DNA from: a virus
DNA: 20,311 bases
Virus record (IMG/VR): IMGVR_UViG_3300009370_000214
Location: 1 to 20,311 of that record
Reading direction: 5' to 3' (one strand)
This document shows positions 1,434-12,748 of the stretch, piece after piece. Both the position numbers and the translations under genes were made by a program. Within the stretch, counting starts at the first letter, position 1. Each line of letters opens with the position of its first letter. A model generated the notes under the pieces. The model ran no database searches and was not told the origin of the DNA. It saw only the letters and a program-made list of their open reading frames with translations.

Positions 1434-3290
1434 TTATTTTATTTCACAAGCGCCGCCTGCACAAGCAAGCTCTCCTTGTAGATCTGTGTTATCATCTGTC
1501 TCAATAATCTTTGTCAGATCAACCTTTGATAAACTGCGGGATAGAACTTCGTGCCTTTCTCTGGAACAGTCCTCAAAAGGGGCTTGCTTATAGGTTCCAC
1601 CGTCAGCAGGTAGAACTGATAAGCCGTTGTATTTATCTCTATTATTCCACATCCAATCTCCGACGTCTTGCCATTCTGCTTCTTTGATGGAAATTGTTGC
1701 TGAAACATTATGAGTGTTTTGCCCTTTTCTGTGACCTGACTTGACCCATTCTTGTGCCACTTGTACAACTCGCCTTAAAAGTTGTAGGGCTGATTCGTGT
1801 CTGGTTATTGCGCCTTCTGGAGCCATTTGTGGGACACTAATAACAGCGGTGTCATGTGGTCTAAAAAACTCGTCCTCTACCATTTCAGGATGGTTCATAT
1901 AAAGGTGTTCGTAGATCGCTTCGTTTTTGCCAACACGGATCCTCCGAATGTAATGGTCACTATGCCAAGCGTGAATGCCGCTGGAAGTTCCCAATACCAA
2001 AGAAGAAGTTCCAGCCGGCTTTACTGTTGTACAGCGGGCAGCTGGATTTATTCCTAACTTCTTTGCCACTCTGGAGTTTTCTTTTTTGACAACCGCAGCT
2101 GCCCTCTTCATGTCCAACTCTAAAACATTACCAGAAGCAATACCGGTCATAGAAACACCTATAAGTGCTTCTTTTTCTGTTGTTCTCTGCCAACAATCAC
2201 GAAGGTAATGAAAATCCGTATAGCCTGCCTGCAAAGTTCCAATAAAGGCAGCGTATTTGACACGCTCTTCTAGATCTTCTTGGCATTCTACATTACTTAC
2301 ATTAACTTCTACAAGATTACAAAATTGATATGGTCGTAGAGCGATTTCACAGCACGGATTCGTGCCCCAGTCTTTGTCATTAGAGAAATAGAAACCGGGC
2401 TCTCCTGCGCCGGATGCTTTTACTCTTTCCCAGAGGTTCTGGAAGTAATCCTCTGTAATTCTGTGCCTCAAAAGGAACACAGAGTTGTTTGCTCGTCCTC
2501 TTTGCGGATTCTTCTCCCACCAATTGCCAGTTTTGGCAGTTAGCATTTCATCATCATCTGCGCTAAATAAAGAAATAAGTGCAGCCCTGCGGATACCCCC
2601 AGCAAGGACAGCATCAGCAATATAACAAATGATATCGTGTACTTCAATTGGCTCCAACTTGTCGCCATCTTCTTTTTCATCTAAAACTCCTCTTATCTTA
2701 ACTAGGCACTCACGAAGTGGTTGTGGTCCCGGTGCTTTGCCGCCAGAAGTAACCAATCTCTCTCCCTTTGCCCGAATGTCGCTGAAGTCAAAACGGATTT
2801 TTGATCCGCCCTGAAAATAGCTTCGCATCAGTGCCTTTACTGAGTCTGCCCAACCTTCAATACTGTCTCCAATAAGAAACCTTCGTGATCTCTTTGAGTT
2901 TGGTCTTCGGATCTCTGGAAGTTTTTCTACGTGGTGCTGTTGGACGCTGAAACCTACACCTGTTCCTCCTAATAGAAGAAACATAACTTCACTGAATACT
3001 CTCCAATCATCGACAGGAGCATAAGCGCAATTGTAAATCCTGCTTGGGTTGATTTCTATTGGTTTTCCACCGAACTGCATTGATCGCATCGATGGCAAAA
3101 TCTTTTTATTTGTGACAAATTTATAAGCATCGTTGATCTCGTCTTTGAGTCCTGGGTAGGTCTTCATGTGCATTTTCTTGTTTCTACTGACCAACTCTCT
3201 CCAAGTTTCTCGACGGTTCTTCTTTGGAAGATACTTCGCATACTTCATATGCACCGTGATGTCTGACAGAATTTCTTTTTCTAGATCCAT
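1434..3290 (-). CDS. nrdJ: Class II adenosylcobalamin-dependent ribonucleoside-triphosphate reductase
   Basis: Reduces ribonucleoside triphosphates to dNTPs for phage DNA synthesis using adenosylcobalamin as radical source (monomeric RTPR type, Lactobacillus leichmannii family). All expected catalytic residues are visible. C88 in Y-N-C-A-Y matches C119 of the reference enzyme. N311-P-C313-C-E315 matches N406, C408 and E410, and C324, nine residues after the glutamate, matches C419. A C-terminal C-x4-C pair (C610, C615) matches the shuttle cysteines C731/C736. A V-K-P-A-G-T-S-S phosphate-binding segment lies near 423-430. No N-terminal ATP cone is present. At 618 residues it is shorter than the roughly 740-residue reference. 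The start shares one base with the helicase stop (TAATG) and has an AAGGAG ribosome site, so it is co-translated with the helicase. No thioredoxin or second subunit gene is in the window, consistent with a single-subunit enzyme using host reductants. Confidence 0.93.
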   Translation of the reverse strand: MDLEKEILSDITVHMKYAKYLPKKNRRETWRELVSRNKKMHMKTYPGLKDEINDAYKFVTNKKILPSMRSMQFGGKPIEINPSRIYNCAYAPVDDWRVFSEVMFLLLGGTGVGFSVQQHHVEKLPEIRRPNSKRSRRFLIGDSIEGWADSVKALMRSYFQGGSKIRFDFSDIRAKGERLVTSGGKAPGPQPLRECLVKIRGVLDEKEDGDKLEPIEVHDIICYIADAVLAGGIRRAALISLFSADDDEMLTAKTGNWWEKNPQRGRANNSVFLLRHRITEDYFQNLWERVKASGAGEPGFYFSNDKDWGTNPCCEIALRPYQFCNLVEVNVSNVECQEDLEERVKYAAFIGTLQAGYTDFHYLRDCWQRTTEKEALIGVSMTGIASGNVLELDMKRAAAVVKKENSRVAKKLGINPAARCTTVKPAGTSSLVLGTSSGIHAWHSDHYIRRIRVGKNEAIYEHLYMNHPEMVEDEFFRPHDTAVISVPQMAPEGAITRHESALQLLRRVVQVAQEWVKSGHRKGQNTHNVSATISIKEAEWQDVGDWMWNNRDKYNGLSVLPADGGTYKQAPFEDCSRERHEVLSRSLSKVDLTKIIETDDNTDLQGELACAGGACEIK

Positions 3291-4657
3291 TATTTGTCTC
3301 CTTTCATAAGTTGTTTGTATTTGTCTTTCAACAATTGTTCTTGATCTTTTGCTGGTGTTTGAGAAAGTGTACCAGCACTCGGCTGGTTTTTTAAGATCTT
3401 TATCAAAACTTTGCTGGTATCCATATGGATTTCCATTGGAATACCGTCCATACCAAATCTATTCTTTGCTACAAAAAATCTACCCCCGTTATTAGCTTTG
3501 TCCTCAATTGTTCGCGATAAAGTAAAAATAAAATCAGACACAAAACACTTGGAAAATGCTTCCGAAATGCTTTCTATTGTGACTAACTGTGCATTATAAC
3601 CTTGACGATTTGTTTGAGATACAGTCCATACAGGACACTCGTGGATTTGAGCAGTTTTTCGTAACTCTTCATAAATAGATTCCAAATCGTGTCTTTTCTC
3701 CGAGTATGCTTTTTTTGCACTGATTAAATCAGCATAATCAACAATAATAAGATCAGGTTTTATTCCCTTTATTTTCAGTTTTTCCAAATGGTTGTTTATG
3801 TTGTTGATTGTGATTGATTTTGTTGGGTATTCTTTGACAATAAGTGCTCCTTCGATCTCTTGAATGCTCTCCAAGATTTGATCTTTGAAAGTGTTGAGTT
3901 CTCCCAAAGGAGTTTGAGTTATACAACTATCATAGCGTCTGGCAATCACAGTGTCTGATAATTCCAGAGTATAATGGACAACAGTTTTGCCAGCCTTTAA
4001 AGCTTGGGATCCCAAATGAACAAGGATGTGGCTTTTTCCTGCTCCCGTTCCTGCGAGGGCAACTCCAAGTTCGCCTTTGCCTAATCCACCACCCATAATG
4101 TCGTCGAACTCTTTCCAGCCAGTAGATACTGGATTTCTGGACTTTATCAAGAACCGCTCCTCAAAATCTTTAATGTAGTCATAACCAAAGTCATTTGTTT
4201 GTCCGAGCTTTAGCGCATCATTGATCAGAGTTGCGATCTCGTCAAAAGAAGATTTCTTGAGTAGGTTCACTGATTTTAGGATTGCTTCTTTTAGTTTCTG
4301 TTTCTTACAGAAATCAAGTGCTGTGTCTTTTATAAAATCTTCAGCGTCCAGTTCTGGATTGGAGTAGATCCGAACAAGGAAATCTCTTATTCGTTTCTTG
4401 GTTATATCGTCTAAATCTTCTGCCTCTACTTGGATAACAGAAGCCATGGTCTCCAAAGTTGGATGAACCTTATACTTCTCTTTATAGGAGTAGATAAGAT
4501 TTGTAAATTCTTGTAGGTAACGTGTTTCAAAATAGCTTGTCTCGAACACTTCACCGATTTGGTCGGCAAATGTCCTATTCAGCATTATTAGTTTGGCTAA
4601 GTTCTCTTGGAACTTGACACCAAATTTTGAAAAATCAACCTTTTCAGTTGGCTTCAT
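3290..4657 (-). CDS. Replicative DNA helicase, DnaB/T4 gp41 family
   Basis: Hexameric 5'-3' helicase that would unwind the replication fork and recruit primase. The 455 residues follow the DnaB plan and are close in length to T4 gp41 (475). A helical N-terminal domain covers about 1-150. A RecA-type motor follows with Walker A G-T-G-A-G-K-S at 203-209, the catalytic glutamate in T-L-E-L-S at about 232, Walker B L-I-I-V-D-Y-A-D at 303-310, the S-Q-T-N-R-Q sensor loop at 347-352, and a late K-N-R-F-G at about 398-402 in the usual arginine-finger region. A near-perfect sigma-70 promoter lies immediately upstream (4709-4681), and GAGG sits just before the ATG. It is followed by the reductase with a one-base overlap. 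I see no primase fused to it or elsewhere in the window. Confidence 0.92.
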   Translation of the reverse strand: MKPTEKVDFSKFGVKFQENLAKLIMLNRTFADQIGEVFETSYFETRYLQEFTNLIYSYKEKYKVHPTLETMASVIQVEAEDLDDITKKRIRDFLVRIYSNPELDAEDFIKDTALDFCKKQKLKEAILKSVNLLKKSSFDEIATLINDALKLGQTNDFGYDYIKDFEERFLIKSRNPVSTGWKEFDDIMGGGLGKGELGVALAGTGAGKSHILVHLGSQALKAGKTVVHYTLELSDTVIARRYDSCITQTPLGELNTFKDQILESIQEIEGALIVKEYPTKSITINNINNHLEKLKIKGIKPDLIIVDYADLISAKKAYSEKRHDLESIYEELRKTAQIHECPVWTVSQTNRQGYNAQLVTIESISEAFSKCFVSDFIFTLSRTIEDKANNGGRFFVAKNRFGMDGIPMEIHMDTSKVLIKILKNQPSAGTLSQTPAKDQEQLLKDKYKQLMKGDK

Positions 4658-4680: not shown

Positions 4681-4709
4681 ATTATAGTAAAAAATGAGGA
4701 GTTTGTCAA
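4681..4709 (-). promoter_or_regulatory. Consensus sigma-70 promoter for helicase-nrdJ
   Basis: TTGACA at 4709-4704, a 17-base spacer, and TATAAT at 4686-4681, a full consensus match. The TGA stop codon of the upstream nuclease gene (4708-4706) is embedded in the -35 box. The predicted transcript starts near 4674 with AAACACA close to the start, and the helicase ATG is at 4657. Confidence 0.9.
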
Positions 4710-5656
4710 GCATTAGCTGCGATACGATTACAAGCAGCAAAGAGGTCGTCCATTCTCAAAGTTGGGAAGCCGTCTTCAATCATCATTTTTTTCATATTAG
4801 TTTTAGCAAAGATCGTTGGGTAATCCTCAATAACATTACGAATAAAGGTTCTTGTTTTGACTGAAACTCCTGGATTGTATAGTTGCATAATCTTATAGTT
4901 GGCTAATATAAGTTTATCGCTGTCTATTACATTCTCATAAATCTTCAACGGCTTCTCTGCTTCTTTCGCTGTCTTTACAAGATCTTTAACTGTGTAATCT
5001 TTTTCCTCGGCAAGATAAGGAAATCGTTTTGCTATTGTTTTCAGTCCTGCTCCTGGAATACCGACCAGATTATCACTTGGATCACCAGCCATTGCCCTTG
5101 CGAGAGCAAAGTTTCTGGGGTGGATTCCAAACTCTTCTACAATCTTGTTTTTGTGGTACAACTTCTTCTGGATTGGTCTGTGTAAGATTGTTTCGTCGTC
5201 CAATAGTTGGAAGAAATCCTTATCGCTGGAAACTATTACCTTTTCCCACCCTTTGTATTCCTGACAAGCAATAGCAATAACGTCGTCTGCCTCAACATTT
5301 TCACTTACAATCTGGACGACTGGAAGTTGATTGAGGTATTCTGACAACCTCAATTGTTGAATGATTTTGTTTTCCATTTCCTCTTCCATCGTAAGCATGC
5401 TATCGTTACGATTGAGGCGGACTGCTTTTCTTCCTTCTTTGTAGTTCTTGTTCATTGATCTGCGACGTTGGCTTCCGCCTGCTCCGTCCCAACAGATAAT
5501 AACGTGATCTGGCTTGATCTCTCTTGTTAATTTTTGTAGGATTTTTAGAAACCCTGTGACACCGCCGATTGGTTTCCCATTTGTACTCAAAGTGGGATCA
5601 ACAATAAACGCTCTGTAAAAGTTGTTGGTGCCATCTACTATCATTACTCTTGACAT
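4706..5656 (-). CDS. FEN-type 5'-3' exonuclease / flap endonuclease (RNase H-like)
   Basis: Removes RNA primers and 5' flaps at the replication fork. It belongs to the structure-specific 5' nuclease family that includes T4 RNase H, T5 D15 and the N-terminal domain of Pol I. Metal-binding acidic motifs appear in order: I-V-D8-G, C-W-D57-G followed by an arginine-rich stretch, V-E122-A-D-D125, S-S-D145-K-D147 and G-D192-P-S-D195-N. A helix-hairpin-helix-like G-I-P-G-A-G-L-K-T segment follows near 199-207. I place the start at the ATG at 5656 (316 residues). The upstream in-frame ATG at 5698 lies inside the -10 box of the promoter, and the chosen start has a GGAGAAAG ribosome site. Because the polymerase in this window has no nuclease domains, this separate enzyme is probably its partner. 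Confidence 0.92.
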   Translation of the reverse strand: MSRVMIVDGTNNFYRAFIVDPTLSTNGKPIGGVTGFLKILQKLTREIKPDHVIICWDGAGGSQRRRSMNKNYKEGRKAVRLNRNDSMLTMEEEMENKIIQQLRLSEYLNQLPVVQIVSENVEADDVIAIACQEYKGWEKVIVSSDKDFFQLLDDETILHRPIQKKLYHKNKIVEEFGIHPRNFALARAMAGDPSDNLVGIPGAGLKTIAKRFPYLAEEKDYTVKDLVKTAKEAEKPLKIYENVIDSDKLILANYKIMQLYNPGVSVKTRTFIRNVIEDYPTIFAKTNMKKMMIEDGFPTLRMDDLFAACNRIAANA

Positions 5657-5696
5657 TCTTTCTCCATATAATAAAACCGTCGTTATAGACAGGCTC

Positions 5697-5725
5697 ATTA
5701 TAGATCATTTGGAGGGTTGTGTCAA
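5697..5725 (-). promoter_or_regulatory. Consensus sigma-70 promoter for the 5' nuclease
   Basis: TTGACA at 5725-5720, a 17-base spacer, and TATAAT at 5702-5697. The -35 box starts three bases after the stop codon of the fibre gene. Transcription should begin near 5690, about 34 bases before the nuclease start chosen here. This rules out the longer reading frame as the product of this promoter. Confidence 0.9.
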
Positions 5726-5728
5726 GGA

Positions 5729-6982
5729 TTATTCATACTCGATGAACGTTTCACCGGTTATCTCTTCAAGTTTACGGATCATTTTCTCCATCTTGATTCT
5801 AACAATCTTTCCTGTTTTTGTATTTCTAGAAAAGTATTGCCACTCGCCATCATCATTGTGAGGGGATAATTGAGTTTCATTACCAGACGCATCTTTTGTA
5901 TAAAGTTCACCAGATTTGGTATAAAGAAGAGAAGCATTTGTCGGAGTGTGGGTAGCAGAGCCAGTCAAATTGTTTATTTGAACTATATTCCGACTTCCAA
6001 GCACTATCGTGTCAGTAATAGCTGTAGTAGCACTTAAACCGATTGCTATAGCATTCACAGCTGTTGCTTCTGCGCTGTGACCAATTGCGACACTATCATC
6101 GGCTGTTGCTTGTGCGGCGTGTCCAACAGCAACAGCATCATCACCAGGACCAGCGTCGGAATCGTGCCCGATCGCAACACTGCTATCGCCGCTGGCGATG
6201 CCATAGTCGGCTTGATATCCGATTGCGATACTATAAGCATTAGATGTCTGCGCGTAATAACCAATCGCAGTACTATAATTACCAGTTGCTGTAGCACGTT
6301 GCGTAATTGCGACACTAGTGATGCCCAATGCCTGCGCTGTCATACCTATAGCAACAGCTTGTGCTGCTCTGGCTTTACTATCAGTGCCCAGGGAGACAGC
6401 ATAGTTACCATCACACAAAACGCTTTGACCGATGCCAATGCAGGCAGTTGCTTTAGCGTCTGGGGCATAACCAATTGCAATAGAGCCGGCATGTGTTGCT
6501 TCTGCCCAATATCCAATTGCAACAGCTTTATCTGAAGTTCCGTTTGCATTATAGCCAATTGCGACACTGTAGGCGGCTGATGAGTTTGCTTTGTATCCAA
6601 TTGCTGCGCTGTAAGATCCTGCTGCGGCTGGAGAAGCGCCGATTGCTATGCTGTCTGCTCCCGCGCCGGCTGGGTTAATAGCAGAAGAACTGATTATTCC
6701 TCCAAAAAGAGCAGAAGCAGAAATGTGTGTTAAAGACGTCAGTCTATAAATTGATGCGGATGAATATTCCAGCGTCGAGCCGCTAATTGAGGCAGTTAAA
6801 GTTGTTCCGTCGTAAGTAAGATTTGCAGAGCCGGCGAAAGAACCAGCATTATTATATTGGACTTGTGTATCGGATCCGCCAGGAGATCCTCCACCGCCGC
6901 CGCCTACGCGAGTGATCTCATCATATAGATCACCGCTATTCTTCTTTTTAGAATTGTTGAGATCTTTGTCGTAACGAGCCAT
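5729..6982 (-). CDS. YadA-head-type repeat fibre protein
   Basis: Probable trimeric fibre or virion surface protein. The N-terminus (1-30) is charged, then comes a glycine run and D-T-Q-V-Q-Y-N-N-x-G-S-F-x-G-S-x-N-L-T-Y-D-type sequence at 38-58, a segment widespread in phage tail fibres. About sixteen degenerate repeats of S-V-A-I-G-Y-x-A-type sequence, spaced roughly 14 residues apart, fill 111-331. Repeats of this kind form left-handed beta-rolls in the YadA/Hia head. A C-terminal region (338-417) has a Y-T-K-S-G-E-L-Y motif and an amphipathic helix. There is no signal peptide or outer-membrane anchor, so it is not a bacterial autotransporter adhesin. It follows the recombinase by 18 bases with no clear ribosome site, and it sits amid replication genes rather than in the tail module. 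A decoration or internal protein is an alternative. Confidence 0.8.
   Translation of the reverse strand: MARYDKDLNNSKKKNSGDLYDEITRVGGGGGGSPGGSDTQVQYNNAGSFAGSANLTYDGTTLTASISGSTLEYSSASIYRLTSLTHISASALFGGIISSSAINPAGAGADSIAIGASPAAAGSYSAAIGYKANSSAAYSVAIGYNANGTSDKAVAIGYWAEATHAGSIAIGYAPDAKATACIGIGQSVLCDGNYAVSLGTDSKARAAQAVAIGMTAQALGITSVAITQRATATGNYSTAIGYYAQTSNAYSIAIGYQADYGIASGDSSVAIGHDSDAGPGDDAVAVGHAAQATADDSVAIGHSAEATAVNAIAIGLSATTAITDTIVLGSRNIVQINNLTGSATHTPTNASLLYTKSGELYTKDASGNETQLSPHNDDGEWQYFSRNTKTGKIVRIKMEKMIRKLEEITGETFIEYE
5990..6652 (-). repeat. Tandem ~14-residue AIG-type coding repeats in the fibre gene
   Basis: About sixteen coding repeats of roughly 42 bases, visible as recurring A-I-G-Y/H (variants S-L-G, A-I-T, V-V-G, V-L-G). 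They are clear at protein level but diverged in DNA, so the array is old rather than freshly expanded. Long shadow reading frames on both strands arise from this bias. Confidence 0.8.
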
Positions 6983-7000: not shown

Positions 7001-8125
7001 TCATTCTTCTTTATCGATGTCATAAAAATCTTCAGCTGAACCTTGGCGCTTATCAAACTTCATTACAACTTCTTCTTCCATAAGTTGGATCACTCGGTTG
7101 TAAAACTTTTCATTTTCCAGTTTTTCGACCCAACTCTTTTGCTGGAACTTCTCTTCTGTGTCGTCTTCATAGACCAGAGTAAACCAAGACCCCGCATTTT
7201 TAAGATAATCAGACCCTTTGATTGCTTCAAACCAACTTTCTTTATCCATAATGTGAACATTATCACCGCCCCAGACAATCTTAAAGGTGCATAATCTTCC
7301 TTGTGTACCAAAGCGGCTTTTCTCAATCTTTGCCTTCACTTCTGTACCAGTACGGAAACCGCTGTCATCAAAGATAAAACTGGACTTTCCTTTTCTTGCT
7401 GTCAGCCAAATGCGTAATGAATACGAATACGACAATGCCTTGCCGCCGGGAGTAAAGTAAGGTGTTGTCATTGCTTCTGATGGCGATCTGGTTATGTTTG
7501 TTTTGAGTTGGTTTAGGATCAGTAATGTTGCTTTCTTGTTTGCTATCGGCTGAACCAGTTTTGCCAGTCCCTTTGATAGAATGCGGGGTTTTACAGCCAT
7601 CGTTGATAAAGGGTTGAAATCACTCTCGATGTCGCTGACAGAAGGTGTCAATGCCAAACTGTCCCAGATAAAAAGCATTTGACTGTCATTGACTGATAAT
7701 AGATTTTCAATCGTTTCCAGTACAAACTCAACTGATTGTGCCTGAACATACAGCAAGTTCTCTAAATCACAGCCTGCGTTCTGTAAAAATGCTGGATCAA
7801 TAGCACTTTCAGAATCAAAGTAGATCACATCAATTCCCATTTTTTGAGCGTTGGCGGCTACTTGTGCTGCCATATAACTTTTGCCTGTTGCTTCAAGTCC
7901 AGCAATTTCGCTCACTTTGCTGACTGGAATTCCACCCCATTCTCCTCTGCGAATAACTCCATCGAGCCATTTTGAACCAGTTGGGATCCATTGATCCACT
8001 TTGGTTGGATTGTCGTCTGTCAAATCATAAGCAACATCAGCACCTGCTGTTTTGTTGATTAGTTTTTTCATATCTGCGATACTTAATCGCCCTGTTGCTA
8101 CTTTATTTTTAGGTCTTTTTACCAT
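7001..8125 (-). CDS. RecA/UvsX-like recombinase
   Basis: ATP-dependent strand-exchange protein for phage recombination and recombination-dependent replication. I start it at the ATG at 8125 (374 residues), which has AAAGGAG with good spacing. The frame is open up to 8188, but that extension would run through a transcription terminator. Visible motifs are Walker A G-L-E-A-T-G-K-S at 76-83, a Y-F-D-S-E106 segment (catalytic glutamate region), Walker B L-F-I-W-D-S at 151-156, an N-Q-L-K-T-N-I segment at 205-211, and P-G-G-K-A-L at 226-231 like the DNA-binding loop 2 end of bacterial RecA. The core looks closer to RecA than to T4 UvsX. It lies downstream of the single-strand binding protein gene, its usual functional partner, and its expression depends on read-through of the terminator at 8142-8180. 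Confidence 0.92.
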   Translation of the reverse strand: MVKRPKNKVATGRLSIADMKKLINKTAGADVAYDLTDDNPTKVDQWIPTGSKWLDGVIRRGEWGGIPVSKVSEIAGLEATGKSYMAAQVAANAQKMGIDVIYFDSESAIDPAFLQNAGCDLENLLYVQAQSVEFVLETIENLLSVNDSQMLFIWDSLALTPSVSDIESDFNPLSTMAVKPRILSKGLAKLVQPIANKKATLLILNQLKTNITRSPSEAMTTPYFTPGGKALSYSYSLRIWLTARKGKSSFIFDDSGFRTGTEVKAKIEKSRFGTQGRLCTFKIVWGGDNVHIMDKESWFEAIKGSDYLKNAGSWFTLVYEDDTEEKFQQKSWVEKLENEKFYNRVIQLMEEEVVMKFDKRQGSAEDFYDIDKEE

Positions 8126-8141
8126 TTGTACTCCTTTATAA

Positions 8142-8180
8142 TAAAAAGAAGGGGAGTGCCATCGTGAAACAGCACTCCCC
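8142..8180 (-). terminator. Strong intrinsic terminator between ssb and recA
   Basis: On the minus strand GGGGAGTGC (8180-8172) pairs perfectly with GCACTCCCC (8159-8151) around a 12-base loop and is followed by TTCTTTTTA. This 9-bp GC-rich stem with a T-rich tail lies between the ssb stop and the recA ribosome site. With no promoter seen between it and recA, it should act as an attenuator, keeping ssb mRNA in excess over recA mRNA. Confidence 0.88.
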
Positions 8181-8191
8181 TCCCTCATCTA

Positions 8192-8209: not shown

Positions 8210-8941
8210 CTAACCAAGCAGTTCACTGAATGCCTTATCAACGGAATCTTGTTTAGCTGTTGCTGTGTATTTTGAGACACCAACAGAACCGTCATCCTCT
8301 GAAAGAAATTGATCCAACATTGTTTGAACTTCTTCAACTGTCTTTCGAGTGAACAGAGCATCGTAATCCACTTCTGTGTTTACAATCTCAGTCGAAAGCT
8401 CAGTGTCCTCCGTGATTGGAGAACTTCGCCGGCGAGGCTCCACATCAGTAGATGGAAACATCGCACCAGACTTCTTGCCATATCGCAAGACAATATCTGT
8501 TCCTTCTTCTGGGTCCGTAATGTCCCCATAATCAGGATTGAGCACGAGGCCCAGAAGCTTCTCATAAACAGTTCGACTATAACCCCAAAGCCTTACGCCT
8601 TTCTCTTCTTCGCCGCGCACAACAACCGGTGAGAAGAATCGCTGTTTAGCCATAAGCTTTTTAGCCAATTCCCGACTCTCGTCAGAACCTTCGTTGAAGA
8701 GTTTGCGAACAAACTTATCAAGTGGATCCTCCTCTCCAAAGTTCTTCTTTGGGCTGAGAAACGCCATGTTGTCTCCCAAGTTATAGTGAAACCAGAACTC
8801 CTTGAAGGGATCGCCATCGCTGGCTGGAATGATACGAATGGTCTGTTCACCGTCTTGCGGTTTCCAGAACCATTGTTTACCACCCCCCTTGTTAGAAAGT
8901 GCTGCCTGCTTTTGCTTCATTTTTTTAAGATCTAGTGCCAT
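8210..8941 (-). CDS. gp32-like single-stranded DNA-binding protein
   Basis: Coats single-stranded DNA at the fork and loads recombination partners. The 243 residues are somewhat shorter than T4 gp32 (301). A basic N-terminal peptide (L-D-L-K-K-M-K-Q-K-Q) stands where gp32 has its cooperativity domain. A core with W-F-W-K-P and F-W-F-H-Y-N-L-G at about 24-57 follows, then further aromatic and basic residues (for example R-L-W-G-Y-S-R near 118-124). The C-terminal region is acidic. There is not one cysteine, so the zinc site of T4 gp32 (one His, three Cys) is absent. A-A-A-G-G-A-G-type ribosome site, two upstream promoters, a structured leader and a downstream terminator all point to high, controlled expression. 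Its position upstream of recA supports the assignment. Confidence 0.8.
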   Translation of the reverse strand: MALDLKKMKQKQAALSNKGGGKQWFWKPQDGEQTIRIIPASDGDPFKEFWFHYNLGDNMAFLSPKKNFGEEDPLDKFVRKLFNEGSDESRELAKKLMAKQRFFSPVVVRGEEEKGVRLWGYSRTVYEKLLGLVLNPDYGDITDPEEGTDIVLRYGKKSGAMFPSTDVEPRRRSSPITEDTELSTEIVNTEVDYDALFTRKTVEEVQTMLDQFLSEDDGSVGVSKYTATAKQDSVDKAFSELLG

Positions 8942-9107: not shown

Positions 9108-9320
9108 TTATTCGAGATTATCTAGATTATTAATAATGGTCAATAAATCTTCTTTTATTTCGTCTAAGTTGGGATTGCTGGCTTTAATTTTTTCCAAATT
9201 AGTTATCAAACTAACCTCCAGCGCAGCTAATTTAGGATCTGTGTCCATTTCATCTCGCTGATAAAGAGCACCCAACTCTTCCTGAATAATTTCTTTTAGT
9301 CGTTTAGCTGTAATTTTCAT
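9108..9320 (-). CDS. Small acidic helical protein with amphipathic N-terminus (70 aa)
   Basis: Function unknown. I start it at the ATG at 9320, preceded by AAGGAG at good spacing. The frame continues upstream into the tubulin-like gene but without support. The N-terminus MKITAKRLKEIIQEEL predicts an amphipathic helix. The remaining residues (about 28-70) are acidic and leucine/isoleucine-rich with heptad-like spacing, suggesting a second helix or coiled coil. I recall similar 'MKITxxxLKxIIxEEL' starts in hypothetical proteins of marine T4-like phages, where a targeting role is conceivable. That is recollection and inference, not proof. It follows the tubulin-like gene by 40 bases containing a perfect inverted repeat. 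Confidence 0.75.
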   Translation of the reverse strand: MKITAKRLKEIIQEELGALYQRDEMDTDPKLAALEVSLITNLEKIKASNPNLDEIKEDLLTIINNLDNLE

Positions 9321-9360: not shown

Positions 9361-10176
9361 TTACTCTTGAGTAAAATTCGTGTGTGCCAACAAATAAACA
9401 TAGTTCTCTTCATACGAAGTAGAAGTGATACTATAAGATACAGTAGTAAAATCTTCTTGTCCTGCATTCATTATCTGGTTGCTGATTTTGTTTAGTAGAT
9501 TTTTCTCTTCACTTAATGTTTTTTGACTGAAGGTATAGAAGAAGTTCTTCTCTCTAATGTTCTGTAAATCATAGAAATATTTCTCTTCACCCTCCGACGA
9601 ATCGTAGTAACCAAGAGTTGAGATCCTATTAACTTCTGCTGGCTCTGAAACATTTGACATAACAGAAGATGCGTTGTCCAGATAGTTCAGCATATGAAAG
9701 GTCGAGGCAATAGTTTTGTTGATAACCTCGAAGTATTCAACAATCGAAAGGTCACCCAAAATGTTTGAAATTGCGTCATTTCCAAGCAAAAACAACCGTT
9801 TTATAGCCCCAGACCGAGCGTATTCTTGTAAAACCTTATAAACCAAGTTTTCCCTCAGTTTGGCTCTAGGATTGAGGAAGTTCTTATCGGGACGAATGTA
9901 AGCAACACTAGTGTTTGCGTCCGTTAGAGAGCCTAATAGAGCCATTAGAGAGCCACTTACTATTCCTCCCCCCACAAGAAACACACAAGTTGGTCCTTTT
10001 ACCTTCTTTGTAAGTTCTGGGAAAGATTGGAAGTTCTTTTCTGCTTCTTCCATTGTTTTGCTTTTGGGCAGATTATATTCTTCATCGACATCAACACAGA
10101 AAATCTTGTACTGTGAGTACTGCTCAAACTGTTTGGCAATCTTACAGCCGCCTTGTCCTAATCCAATAATGTTCAT
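9361..10176 (-). CDS. Divergent tubulin/FtsZ-like protein
   Basis: Probable GTP-binding cytoskeletal-type protein of the tubulin/FtsZ/TubZ superfamily. The N-terminal strand and loop M-N-I-I-G-L-G-Q-G-G-C-K-I-A (1-14) resembles the tubulin/TubZ first nucleotide loop (G-Q-x-G). F-L-V-G-G-G-I-V-S-G-S at 66-76 stands where the family has G-G-G-T-G-(S/T)-G, but with an altered, longer loop. G-N-D-A-I-S-N at about 132-138 could be the start of the central helix. The 271 residues are shorter than FtsZ, so the C-terminal domain is reduced. I cannot identify the catalytic T7-loop acidic residues confidently. Its start overlaps the polymerase stop (ATGA), so the two are co-translated. Alternatives are a Rossmann-type nucleotide-binding protein or an inactive tubulin relative. 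Phage tubulins (PhuZ, TubZ) position DNA or replication centres, which would fit the location. Confidence 0.62.
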   Translation of the reverse strand: MNIIGLGQGGCKIAKQFEQYSQYKIFCVDVDEEYNLPKSKTMEEAEKNFQSFPELTKKVKGPTCVFLVGGGIVSGSLMALLGSLTDANTSVAYIRPDKNFLNPRAKLRENLVYKVLQEYARSGAIKRLFLLGNDAISNILGDLSIVEYFEVINKTIASTFHMLNYLDNASSVMSNVSEPAEVNRISTLGYYDSSEGEEKYFYDLQNIREKNFFYTFSQKTLSEEKNLLNKISNQIMNAGQEDFTTVSYSITSTSYEENYVYLLAHTNFTQE

Positions 10177-11345
10177 ACTTTCCTCATTTTACCATAACTC
10201 TTGCCCAAAGATAAGTTGGTTTTGAATTTGCCGATTGGTGTTTCTTCAAAAACCTTTATCAGTTCTGGGATTATCTCTTTATCTTCCTTCGCCAAATCAA
10301 TAACCAAACTGTCGTGAACCGAGAAAGCAATAAATGACTTCTTTTCCTTCAGCATCTCGTGAACTTTGACCATTTGTCTCAAAAACATCTCTGCTGTTGT
10401 GCTTTGGATAATGTAGTTGAGTGCGTGATGTCGATCCGAAGGGATCACTTTGTTAAAGATTGTCTTTACTTCTTTGCCGTCCCAGTATTTCTCTAATACT
10501 TTGTCTCTTTCATAAGCTCGATTGGATAAGTAGTCCTTTGACGCTGGATTATAAAGCCAAGCGAAGATCCTTTCTTTTGCTTCTTGTCTGGTTACCATTC
10601 CACGATAAACATTTTTAATATTCCATTCGTGAATGTCTTCTTTCGGCTGTTCCTTTTCAGACAGTGCCAAAAGCGTTCTCAATTCAGCAGCGTTATAATC
10701 TATTTCCATAAAGAGATCATTGTTGGGCAGAATAGCAGCACGGTGTTCTTTTTTCATCGTTAGAATAGGAAAACTTCCCGGCTCTGTTGTCAACCTGCCT
10801 GTTTTCGTGCCGTAAATGTTGTATTTCACCTTCTTGTCGAGAGTTTTTAGTTTTCTTACGAAGGTTCTTGTCTGTTGGTTGACCATCTGTTCTGATAAAG
10901 CGTGTAAGTCCAACCGAATGTTGTGTTTTTTGATGTCTTCCACCACTTTTGCGAGAGATAAAAGATAATCATAGTCCTCTGGCTTTTCATAAGTGTCAAG
11001 AACATGCTGTGTAATCTCATTCTTGAGTTCACAGTATTCCATTAAGAAATGCTCTGGAACCAAGTCATAAAAGCAGTGCTCTGTCAGGTCTATTTTGGCT
11101 GTGATAAAGGATTTTAAGTGAGCCTTCAGTTTCTGGCTGACCTTCTCCCATTTATGCTTGATACGTTCTGGACAAACTTCGTCCAACTCTTTATTACAAT
11201 AGAACTTGGCGTATTCTACATCCAAAGGCAAGTTCGCTGAATAACCCCAAGTGGCTGTTAGACCTTCTGGTGGTTCATTTAGGATTTGGTTGTTGAGATA
11301 GACGCCTTTACATTCAATTTTGTTGTCTAAAATCTGGAAGATCAC
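10173..11345 (-). CDS. Small family A DNA polymerase lacking exonuclease domains
   Basis: Replicative or repair DNA polymerase reduced to the polymerase domain (390 residues). Motifs run in family A order. G-T-K-T-G-R-L at 179-185 comes first. Motif A is D216-Y-N-A-A-E221-L-R (usually D-Y-S-Q-I-E-L-R). D-I-H follows at 237-239. Motif B is R253-x3-K257-x3-F261-x3-Y265, with F261 at the position of E. coli F762 and N266 replacing the usual glycine. Q-S-T-T-A is near 314, and motif C is V-H344-D345-S346, where the family normally has H-D-E. The N-terminal 150 residues show no 3'-5' exonuclease motifs. The start is GTG with only a weak ribosome site, 8 bases after the previous gene, downstream of a promoter at 11401-11373. 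It is unlike T4, whose polymerase is family B. The separate FEN nuclease at 4706-5656 may supply the missing 5' activity. Confidence 0.87.
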   Translation of the reverse strand: MIFQILDNKIECKGVYLNNQILNEPPEGLTATWGYSANLPLDVEYAKFYCNKELDEVCPERIKHKWEKVSQKLKAHLKSFITAKIDLTEHCFYDLVPEHFLMEYCELKNEITQHVLDTYEKPEDYDYLLSLAKVVEDIKKHNIRLDLHALSEQMVNQQTRTFVRKLKTLDKKVKYNIYGTKTGRLTTEPGSFPILTMKKEHRAAILPNNDLFMEIDYNAAELRTLLALSEKEQPKEDIHEWNIKNVYRGMVTRQEAKERIFAWLYNPASKDYLSNRAYERDKVLEKYWDGKEVKTIFNKVIPSDRHHALNYIIQSTTAEMFLRQMVKVHEMLKEKKSFIAFSVHDSLVIDLAKEDKEIIPELIKVFEETPIGKFKTNLSLGKSYGKMRKV

Positions 11346-11353
11346 TTGAAGCC

Positions 11354-12748
11354 CTAACTAAAGTTCATCAATATAATAGGATCTTTTTCGACAATTGTCA
11401 AGTCTTTTCGATCAATGGGTTTGCTAGTCGTTGCAATGGTACCTAGTGAGTATTCTACGTGCGTAATGGCTAATTCAGAGAACTTTCTATAATCCTCATT
11501 ATTACCTTCTTCCAGCTTTATAGCTGCATGTTTGATAATTTGCTTAAGATTTTTAATGAGCATCTTTAGTTTTCTTTTGGGTAAGGGACTGCCTCTTTCA
11601 GCGTTTCTTATCTTAGCATACCAAACAACCCACTTAGCCGGATTAAACCCTTTGTATTCTTTCCTAGGAAGTACTTGAATTTTAGTTTTACGTGTCGCTT
11701 TAAGGTGAGTAAGGTGCAACGTTTGATACGTTGGATTATCTTCAATAAATTGATTATACATTGCTGTCACATTTGCAGCAAAATCTCCTAAAAAACTCTT
11801 ATAATTGGCATGAGGTTTAAATACCTCCTTGAAAACCTTTTTTAAATCTGCTGATGCGAAGGGTTTGTCATCAAAACCCTTAAGATGATACTTCGCAAGA
11901 TAAGGCCACATCTTATCCGAACGAACATCAGCGACTAGGCGCCATGGAACATTTGGATCCACTTTGAAGCCGTGTTCTTTTGCTAAATAAACGAACGCTT
12001 CATAGTTTGGATCCTCTATAAACGATAGCTTCTCTACGTCTGATTGTGGATCGCCAGTATGAAAGTCATAAACCAACCCAGTAGCTAATGGATTATAATT
12101 ATTGCTCTCCAGAAAACCAGCACGGGTTATAACATCACCTGAATTTTCTACGTGCTCTAAAAGTAAATCATAAAAATCATCAATATTCTTTATTGCTTTG
12201 TTGGTTCTCAACTTGTCCAAATATTCCTGGTAAAAGTTTGTATAAACTCCTTCTATTTCTTCAGTGTAAAAGGCATCAGCATCTTGCCATCTACTTTTAA
12301 TTTTCAAATCCCTAAGAAACTTACTTTGCCTTGAGATAAATCTATTTCGAAAAGTATTAATAAAGTCAGTCATAGCATAGACTATAAATAATGGTGCTGT
12401 GTCATTGTCTCTTGGGATTGAAGAAATTGCGCCACTATCATTAATCTTACCATATAGCGGCATATCATACCAAATGTCTATAGCGTGTTCCTGAAAATCA
12501 TTGATTACTTTCTTATAGTTGTTTCGTCCTTCGAACTTTTGTTTTGTGTCGGCAGCATTAGTGACTGCTGAAACTTGACCAAACTTAGCTATTATTTCTT
12601 CTTGAAGTTGTTTCTTCTTATCGATCTTGGAAACCTCTTTGGTTTCCACCGCAGGAACTTTGTGTGCTGGCGAGAGATTAACAACCAACTCTTCAGTGTC
12701 GTCATCCAACTTATTAAAACCAACTATTTTTACTGCTTTTTTTATCAT
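11354..12748 (-). CDS. Uncharacterised probable structural protein (464 aa)
   Basis: I do not recognise a named family. The protein is soluble, with a lysine-rich N-terminal stretch (about 40-60), many aromatic residues, and a helix-rich basic region near the C-terminus (about 390-420, K-R-K-L-K-M-L-I-K-N-L-K). A segment D-P-N-V-P-W-R-L-V-A-D-V in the middle (about 263-274) recalls unnamed structural proteins of marine phages, from memory only. It begins four bases after the 977-residue gene and is the last gene of the tail module, so a baseplate or tail-associated role is inferred from position. No enzyme motif, signal peptide or membrane segment is visible. Its last 50 bases carry the promoter of the polymerase gene. 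Confidence 0.75.
   Translation of the reverse strand: MIKKAVKIVGFNKLDDDTEELVVNLSPAHKVPAVETKEVSKIDKKKQLQEEIIAKFGQVSAVTNAADTKQKFEGRNNYKKVINDFQEHAIDIWYDMPLYGKINDSGAISSIPRDNDTAPLFIVYAMTDFINTFRNRFISRQSKFLRDLKIKSRWQDADAFYTEEIEGVYTNFYQEYLDKLRTNKAIKNIDDFYDLLLEHVENSGDVITRAGFLESNNYNPLATGLVYDFHTGDPQSDVEKLSFIEDPNYEAFVYLAKEHGFKVDPNVPWRLVADVRSDKMWPYLAKYHLKGFDDKPFASADLKKVFKEVFKPHANYKSFLGDFAANVTAMYNQFIEDNPTYQTLHLTHLKATRKTKIQVLPRKEYKGFNPAKWVVWYAKIRNAERGSPLPKRKLKMLIKNLKQIIKHAAIKLEEGNNEDYRKFSELAITHVEYSLGTIATTSKPIDRKDLTIVEKDPIILMNFS
11373..11401 (-). promoter_or_regulatory. Sigma-70 promoter for DNA polymerase, inside the upstream gene
   Basis: TTGACA at 11401-11396, a 17-base spacer, and TATTAT at 11378-11373, all within the last 50 bases of the 464-residue gene. 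The transcript should begin near 11366, about 20 bases before the GTG start of the polymerase. It marks the boundary between tail genes and replication genes. Confidence 0.82.

Follow-up and report, generated by a model that had tools for sequence, protein, structure and literature searches.

The gene behind the family-A DNA polymerase (PolA) in a 20,311-bp virus record (the window, by which we mean the whole stretch of DNA analyzed) encodes a divergent tubulin-superfamily protein, tub1, and this protein belongs to a previously undescribed, abundant family. Tubulin is the protein that builds cell skeletons, and the phage tubulins whose function is known to us come from nucleus-forming jumbo phages or plasmid-like partition systems and are dynamic GTPases. 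An initial annotation had treated the window gene (9361-10176, minus strand, 271 amino acids) as a single unusual case of a tubulin beside a polymerase in a phage with a T4-like tail. Unusual it is, and the finding is also larger, as tub1 is a constant component of a large clade of uncultured marine phages, with relatives at no fewer than 588 confirmed IMG/VR loci recovered by alignment search. We found no account of a PolA-linked phage tubulin in the open-access literature searched. The explanation that we favor, with about even confidence, is that tub1 is a GTP-binding tubulin that would not hydrolyze GTP by itself, is made together with PolA, and would serve as a replisome scaffold or accessory.

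The fold of tub1 emerges from structure prediction. Single-sequence searches with the window protein returned no match in Pfam, the PDB or phage records and only one locus in IMG/VR, and relatives were reached first via the polymerase and then via alignment search. The Pfam Tubulin profile PF00091 and the FtsZ profile TIGR00065 each matched 6 of 33 members with best E-values of 0.007 and 0.016, respectively, both under the cut-off, and no tub1 from the large contigs exceeded the PF00091 cut-off. Thus, the tubulin-like fold proposed from the loops in the initial annotation stays below threshold by profile search and is decided in favor of tubulin by structure. An AlphaFold2 model of the window protein, built on the 33-member alignment (pLDDT 92.8, pTM 0.90), has FtsZ and TubZ as its top Foldseek matches in the PDB (E about 3e-12), and VIA-align over residues 1-271 ranks CetZ first (3zid, Z 24.5 over 249 residues at 2.8 A), followed by CetZ2 (23.5), TubZ (23.3) and FtsZ (23.0), the leading PDB matches all being CetZ, TubZ or FtsZ. 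The 50 structural matches listed include no PhuZ structure, which counts neither way. A second member from a 188-kb contig (L033, 36% identical to the window protein) was predicted independently with the same fold (pLDDT 93.0) and the same order of matches (CetZ 24.7, CetZ2 23.7, TubZ 23.3, FtsZ 22.8), and the two-domain tubulin architecture of N-terminal GTPase domain, H7 and C-terminal domain is present in both models. Because two independent models give whole-length matches to FtsZ, CetZ and TubZ at Z 21-25, the predicted tubulin fold is secure. The same does not hold for the sub-family, because only 1-2 Z units separate CetZ, TubZ and FtsZ. Profile comparison adds weak support in a similarity to PhuZ covering T1 to T4 (hhalign, E 1.3e-5) and in one to tub2, a second phage tubulin described below (E 4.5e-4), while comparison with six FtsZ sequences was not significant (E 0.53). 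Weak N-terminal matches to Rossmann families would make tub1 an NAD(P)-binding enzyme instead of a tubulin, but they are confined to the first loop region and were rejected on structure; set against the whole-length matches of both models, this reading retains almost no probability and is already refuted at the level of the modeled fold.

The tub1 gene is a real open reading frame with an ATG start. The four-base overlap with the polymerase gene noted initially is present as ATGA at 10173-10176 (minus strand), read from the sequence, in which the tub1 ATG lies over the TGA of PolA with GAGGAAAGT just before it. Comparison with a 94%-identical copy gave a dN of 0.035 and a dS of 0.42, which together with the number of loci carrying relatives argues that tub1 is not a chance open reading frame. 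The family is under purifying selection, with dN/dS values of 0.08 against the L001 copy and 0.07-0.19 in five further pairs.

Residue conservation was assessed in 80 non-redundant members less than 80% identical to each other. Both loops quoted in the initial annotation are found where it placed them, namely IIGLGQGGCKIA at residues 3-14 and VGGGIVSGS at residues 68-76. The T1 loop, G5-L-G-Q-G-G-C11 (10144-10164, minus strand), is strongly kept (G5 98%, G7 96%, G10 96%). The T4 glycine loop, G69-G-G-I-V-S-G75 (9952-9972, minus strand; G69 88%, G71 85%, S74 81%, G75 73%), departs from the canonical GGGTG[ST]G, reading GGGIVSG in the window and G-[SAG]-G-x-[IV]-S-G across the family, so that the changed signature loop singled out at first is genuine but represents the family norm, the change in T7 being more telling. 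The asparagines at the guanine-contact positions in T6 and H7 are approximately 95% kept when matched by order as opposed to superposition: N133 (9778-9780, minus strand; 95% N), equated by order and spacing, presumably matches the guanine contact N206 of tubulin and N165 of FtsZ, and N153 (9718-9720, minus strand; 96% N) is the putative counterpart of what we take to be N228 of tubulin. Position 149 is aromatic, and Y23, Q117 and R121 are invariant. From loop order and conservation, we infer that the nucleotide pocket of tub1 binds GTP.

The opposite pattern is seen at the catalytic surface. In tubulins, hydrolysis of GTP in one subunit is triggered by its neighbor through the acidic residues of T7 and helix H8; we assume the catalytic residues to be D209 and D212 of FtsZ and E254 of tubulin, and N207, D209 and D212 are invariant in the FtsZ alignment. 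The end of H7 and the T7 region of tub1, H161-M-L-N164...V176 (9649-9696, minus strand), retains the histidine and asparagine of H161-M-x-N164 after H7 in 96% of members each, with the catalytic acidic columns empty. The T7 acidic residues whose presence had been raised as a check are therefore absent: columns 166 and 169 (catalytic +2 and +5) hold D or E in 0% of the 80 members, an assignment that depends on equating N164 with FtsZ N207 and tubulin N249, as a shift by one residue would bring column 170, acidic in 56% of members and serine in the window, into the catalytic place. The C-terminal half is indeed short, as first described, with no helix predicted after H7 and before the following strand, the place of H8 in FtsZ, nor at the H9 place in either model. 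Since the chain stops right after the last strand in both, tub1 has no PhuZ-type tail; it likewise has no linker and no FtsZ C-terminal peptide. T7 is thus predicted to be inactive, and tub1 would have lost GTP self-hydrolysis.

These losses weigh on the possibility that tub1 forms dynamic PhuZ/TubZ-like filaments, positioning or segregating phage DNA through GTP-driven assembly and disassembly. That is the role of the phage tubulins with known function (PMC4244570), and tub1 has the fold of the PhuZ/TubZ group as well as the profile similarity to PhuZ over T1-T4. However, its T7 acidic columns are empty, H8 is missing, and it has no C-terminal tail, whose contacts are required for the PhuZ filament (PMC4244570). 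Furthermore, neither the PhuZ profile (phrog_4733) nor the chimallin profile (phrog_4795) found a match in 11 large, possibly incomplete tub1 contigs, with phiKZ as a positive control for both. A dynamic filament is therefore unlikely.

The linkage to the polymerase extends throughout the family. PolA lies upstream of tub1 on the same strand in 113 of 123 loci with a tub1 open reading frame, a count that takes in some duplicated contigs as well as the copy in the window and of which about half was found through PolA; the gap is at most 30 nt in 87 of the 113. The remaining 10 loci have no more than 750 nt of upstream sequence, and PolA is thus present in 113/113 loci with enough of it. Nearly all of the 48 IMG/VR loci found through the polymerase have a tub1-homologous frame directly behind PolA, and among the 78 loci found via tub1 itself, PolA is upstream in 68/68 with enough sequence. 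Adjacency to PolA is by itself no proof of common function. The distances between tub1 sequences correlate with those of PolA (Mantel r 0.68), the single-strand DNA-binding protein SSB (0.71) and the recombinase UvsX (0.61) over 55 loci, and none of 500 permutations reached the observed r for any of the three; tub1 is co-inherited with PolA, SSB and UvsX. In some phages a small gene sits between PolA and tub1, and at L025 (6182-6520), L027 (1125-1433) and L243 (1103-1411) this insert resembles MazG-like pyrophosphohydrolases by eye (KLVRDKIPEI). Beyond IMG/VR, 50,697 phage records gave no tub1 match with two members as queries, and bacterial and archaeal genome contigs gave 52 pattern matches, none a tub1 relative, in a scan with a nine-member sub-alignment and two short patterns that distant cellular relatives could escape.

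The surrounding gene order, p279-p115-p977-p464-PolA-tub1-SSB-UvsX-exo-DnaB-RNR, is constant across the family. In the window, the order of transcription runs from tail-tube and baseplate proteins through p977, p464, PolA, tub1 and a small gene to SSB, then to UvsX, a repeat-rich protein, a 5'-3' exonuclease, a DnaB helicase and a ribonucleotide reductase (RNR). Two gp19-like tail-tube proteins, one baseplate hub and one baseplate wedge protein support the T4-like tail assigned initially. The gene p464 (11354-12748, minus strand), always syntenic just upstream of PolA across the tub1 clade, matches nothing in Pfam or PHROG. PolA itself (10173-11345, minus strand, 390 amino acids) matches Pfam DNA_pol_A (1.1e-16) and phrog_17 (3.6e-21); its motif A reads DYNAAELR, its O-helix RQEAKERIF and its motif C HDS, as recognized by eye. 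Downstream lie, likewise on the minus strand, SSB (8210-8941; phrog_1192, 1.6e-27), the UvsX/RecA-like recombinase (7001-8188; phrog_97, 3.7e-50), the 5'-3' exonuclease (4706-5698; PF02739, 3.3e-32), the DnaB-like replicative helicase (3290-4657; PF03796, 9.1e-17) and the ribonucleotide reductase (1434-3290; PF02867, 4.2e-10; PF21995, 6.8e-7). PADLOC gave weak, unrelated matches only. The small protein at 9108-9320 starts with MKITAKRLKEIIQEEL, and other small proteins encoded near PolA at related loci begin in a similar way (MKLSRQILEQIIKEEV, MNEEKLRKYIRRMLTEE), which is why this start may represent a shared N-terminal tag. The repeat-rich protein between UvsX and the exonuclease (5729-6982) has AIGYxA repeats resembling trimeric adhesin heads, and at L001 its place is taken by a different open reading frame with a similar N-terminus.

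This setting also bears on whether tub1 might be an FtsZ antagonist, a tubulin-like decoy that would stop division by capping host FtsZ or assembling together with it. Its fold is close to that of FtsZ, loss of T7 and H8 would yield a capping subunit, and unrelated phage proteins that stop FtsZ exist, such as lambda Kil (PMC3961180). Yet a constant position in the replication module across divergent phages fits replication better than a host-specific inhibitor, and we consider such an antagonist quite improbable.

Contigs carrying tub1 reach 155-188 kb, sizes that are lower bounds since IMG/VR classes these contigs as linear. Among cultured phages, Flavobacterium phage immuto (160 kb) and Microcystis phage Mel-JY01 (190 kb) share the order PolA-x-SSB-UvsX-exo-DnaB-RNR with the tub1 phages, but their PolA-SSB slot is filled by other, non-tubulin genes, and neither phage has a tub1 match. 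Because the PolA-SSB slot is otherwise occupied in cultured phages with the same module, tub1 is the mark of an uncultured clade. A tubulin remnant was sought in the immuto slot genes without a match, and a weak tub1-profile match in Rhodothermus phage RM378 was dropped as it covers 53 residues of an otherwise unlike open reading frame. The window RNR is much closer to that of Mel-JY01 (phmmer 8e-283) than are other module genes (DnaB 6e-89, PolA 8e-7), suggesting RNR transfer or strong constraint.

A Pfam Tubulin search of the large tub1 contigs matched a separate open reading frame, tub2, in two of them (L129, 1027-2121, G007; L130, 988-2028, G002); tub2 also occurs at 80 loci, L134-L213, and a search of IMG/VR gave 107 loci, with no match in phage records. 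It is an FtsZ/CetZ-like protein of 346-364 amino acids with a CetZ profile match in the PDB (E 4e-10), a canonical T4 (GGGGGTGS) and a canonical T7 (FDSKDLE), the key T4 and T7 residues being invariant in 23 members, D249 and D252 included. At L129, tub2 adjoins a frame resembling a sigma factor by eye. The pairing of a non-catalytic T7 surface on tub1 with an active one on tub2 would follow the logic of alpha- and beta-tubulin, each protein being half of a two-tubulin system, and it is consistent with eight large contigs that carry both genes and with tub1 and tub2 profiles that align colinearly from residue 3 to residue 174 of tub1 (E 4.5e-4). In contrast, tub2 was matched in only 3 of 13 tub1 contigs (71-188 kb) and tub1 in only 5 of 20 tub2 contigs, the other 10 and 15 being possibly incomplete; a long distance separates the two genes; and in six tub2 contigs without tub1, PolA is followed by an unrelated 165-195-residue protein or by nothing resembling tub1. 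Since most contigs carry only one of the genes, their distributions overlap in part and an obligate pair as a general rule was dropped. A two-tubulin system is possible in some phages and not general, and as the explanation of tub1 we judge it a long shot.

Returning to a tubulin that acts with the polymerase, tub1 would be a guanine-nucleotide-binding tubulin fixed in the replication module of a tailed-phage clade and, given the stop/start overlap in the window, probably made together with the replicative polymerase. It appears to keep the full core of two domains along with the pocket for the nucleotide, to have lost the T7 acidic residues and H8, and to have no C-terminal tail. GTP-loaded tub1 could build lasting, non-dynamic assemblies in which PolA, SSB and UvsX are kept together, or it could be a GTP-dependent partner of the polymerase; a replication role and assembly are what we infer from this context. 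PhuZ D190A, whose catalytic aspartate is disabled, still needs GTP to assemble and gives stable, non-dynamic filaments (PMC4244570), and by analogy filament formation by tub1 is plausible, although it might instead need a partner or not assemble. A stronger version, in which non-hydrolyzing tub1 is a core replisome part of a replication center without a phage nucleus in phages of 150-190 kb, sometimes together with tub2, seems to us rather doubtful. If tub1 acts in replication, it would be a tubulin at work within the machinery that replicates DNA, and it would then offer a clear way to ask whether tubulins remain useful once GTP-driven dynamics are lost. Profile databases hide this abundant phage cytoskeletal family, which is tied to a replicative polymerase in ordinary-size phages and has seemingly kept nucleotide binding while dropping self-catalysis, a pattern that suggests an unstudied way to organize viral DNA replication.

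Archaeal CetZ (3zid and 4b45) is the best structural match and is covered over both domains, but identity is only ~15%, and tub1 is viral and has neither the T7 acidic residues nor H8/H9. FtsZ has the fold and core size in common with tub1, which falls under the FtsZ profile cut-off and ends without the appended FtsZ elements. TubZ/RepX of Bacillus plasmids and phages shares the fold (4ei7), but TubZ extends into a long C-terminal helix and tail and its T7 is catalytic, whereas tub1 consists of the 271-residue core only and sits in a replication module. PhuZ of phiKZ-like jumbo phages is, like tub1, a phage-encoded tubulin, and the contrast that the initial annotation drew with it holds, as tub1 is tailless, lacks the T7 acidic residues, is linked to PolA and comes without chimallin or phrog_4733 matches. 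FtsZl-1 and FtsZl-2 are divergent cellular FtsZ-tubulin families with changed loops and a link to membrane remodeling; FtsZl-1 is without T6-H7 (PMC2875224), and tub1, similarly divergent and with changed loops of its own, keeps T6-H7.
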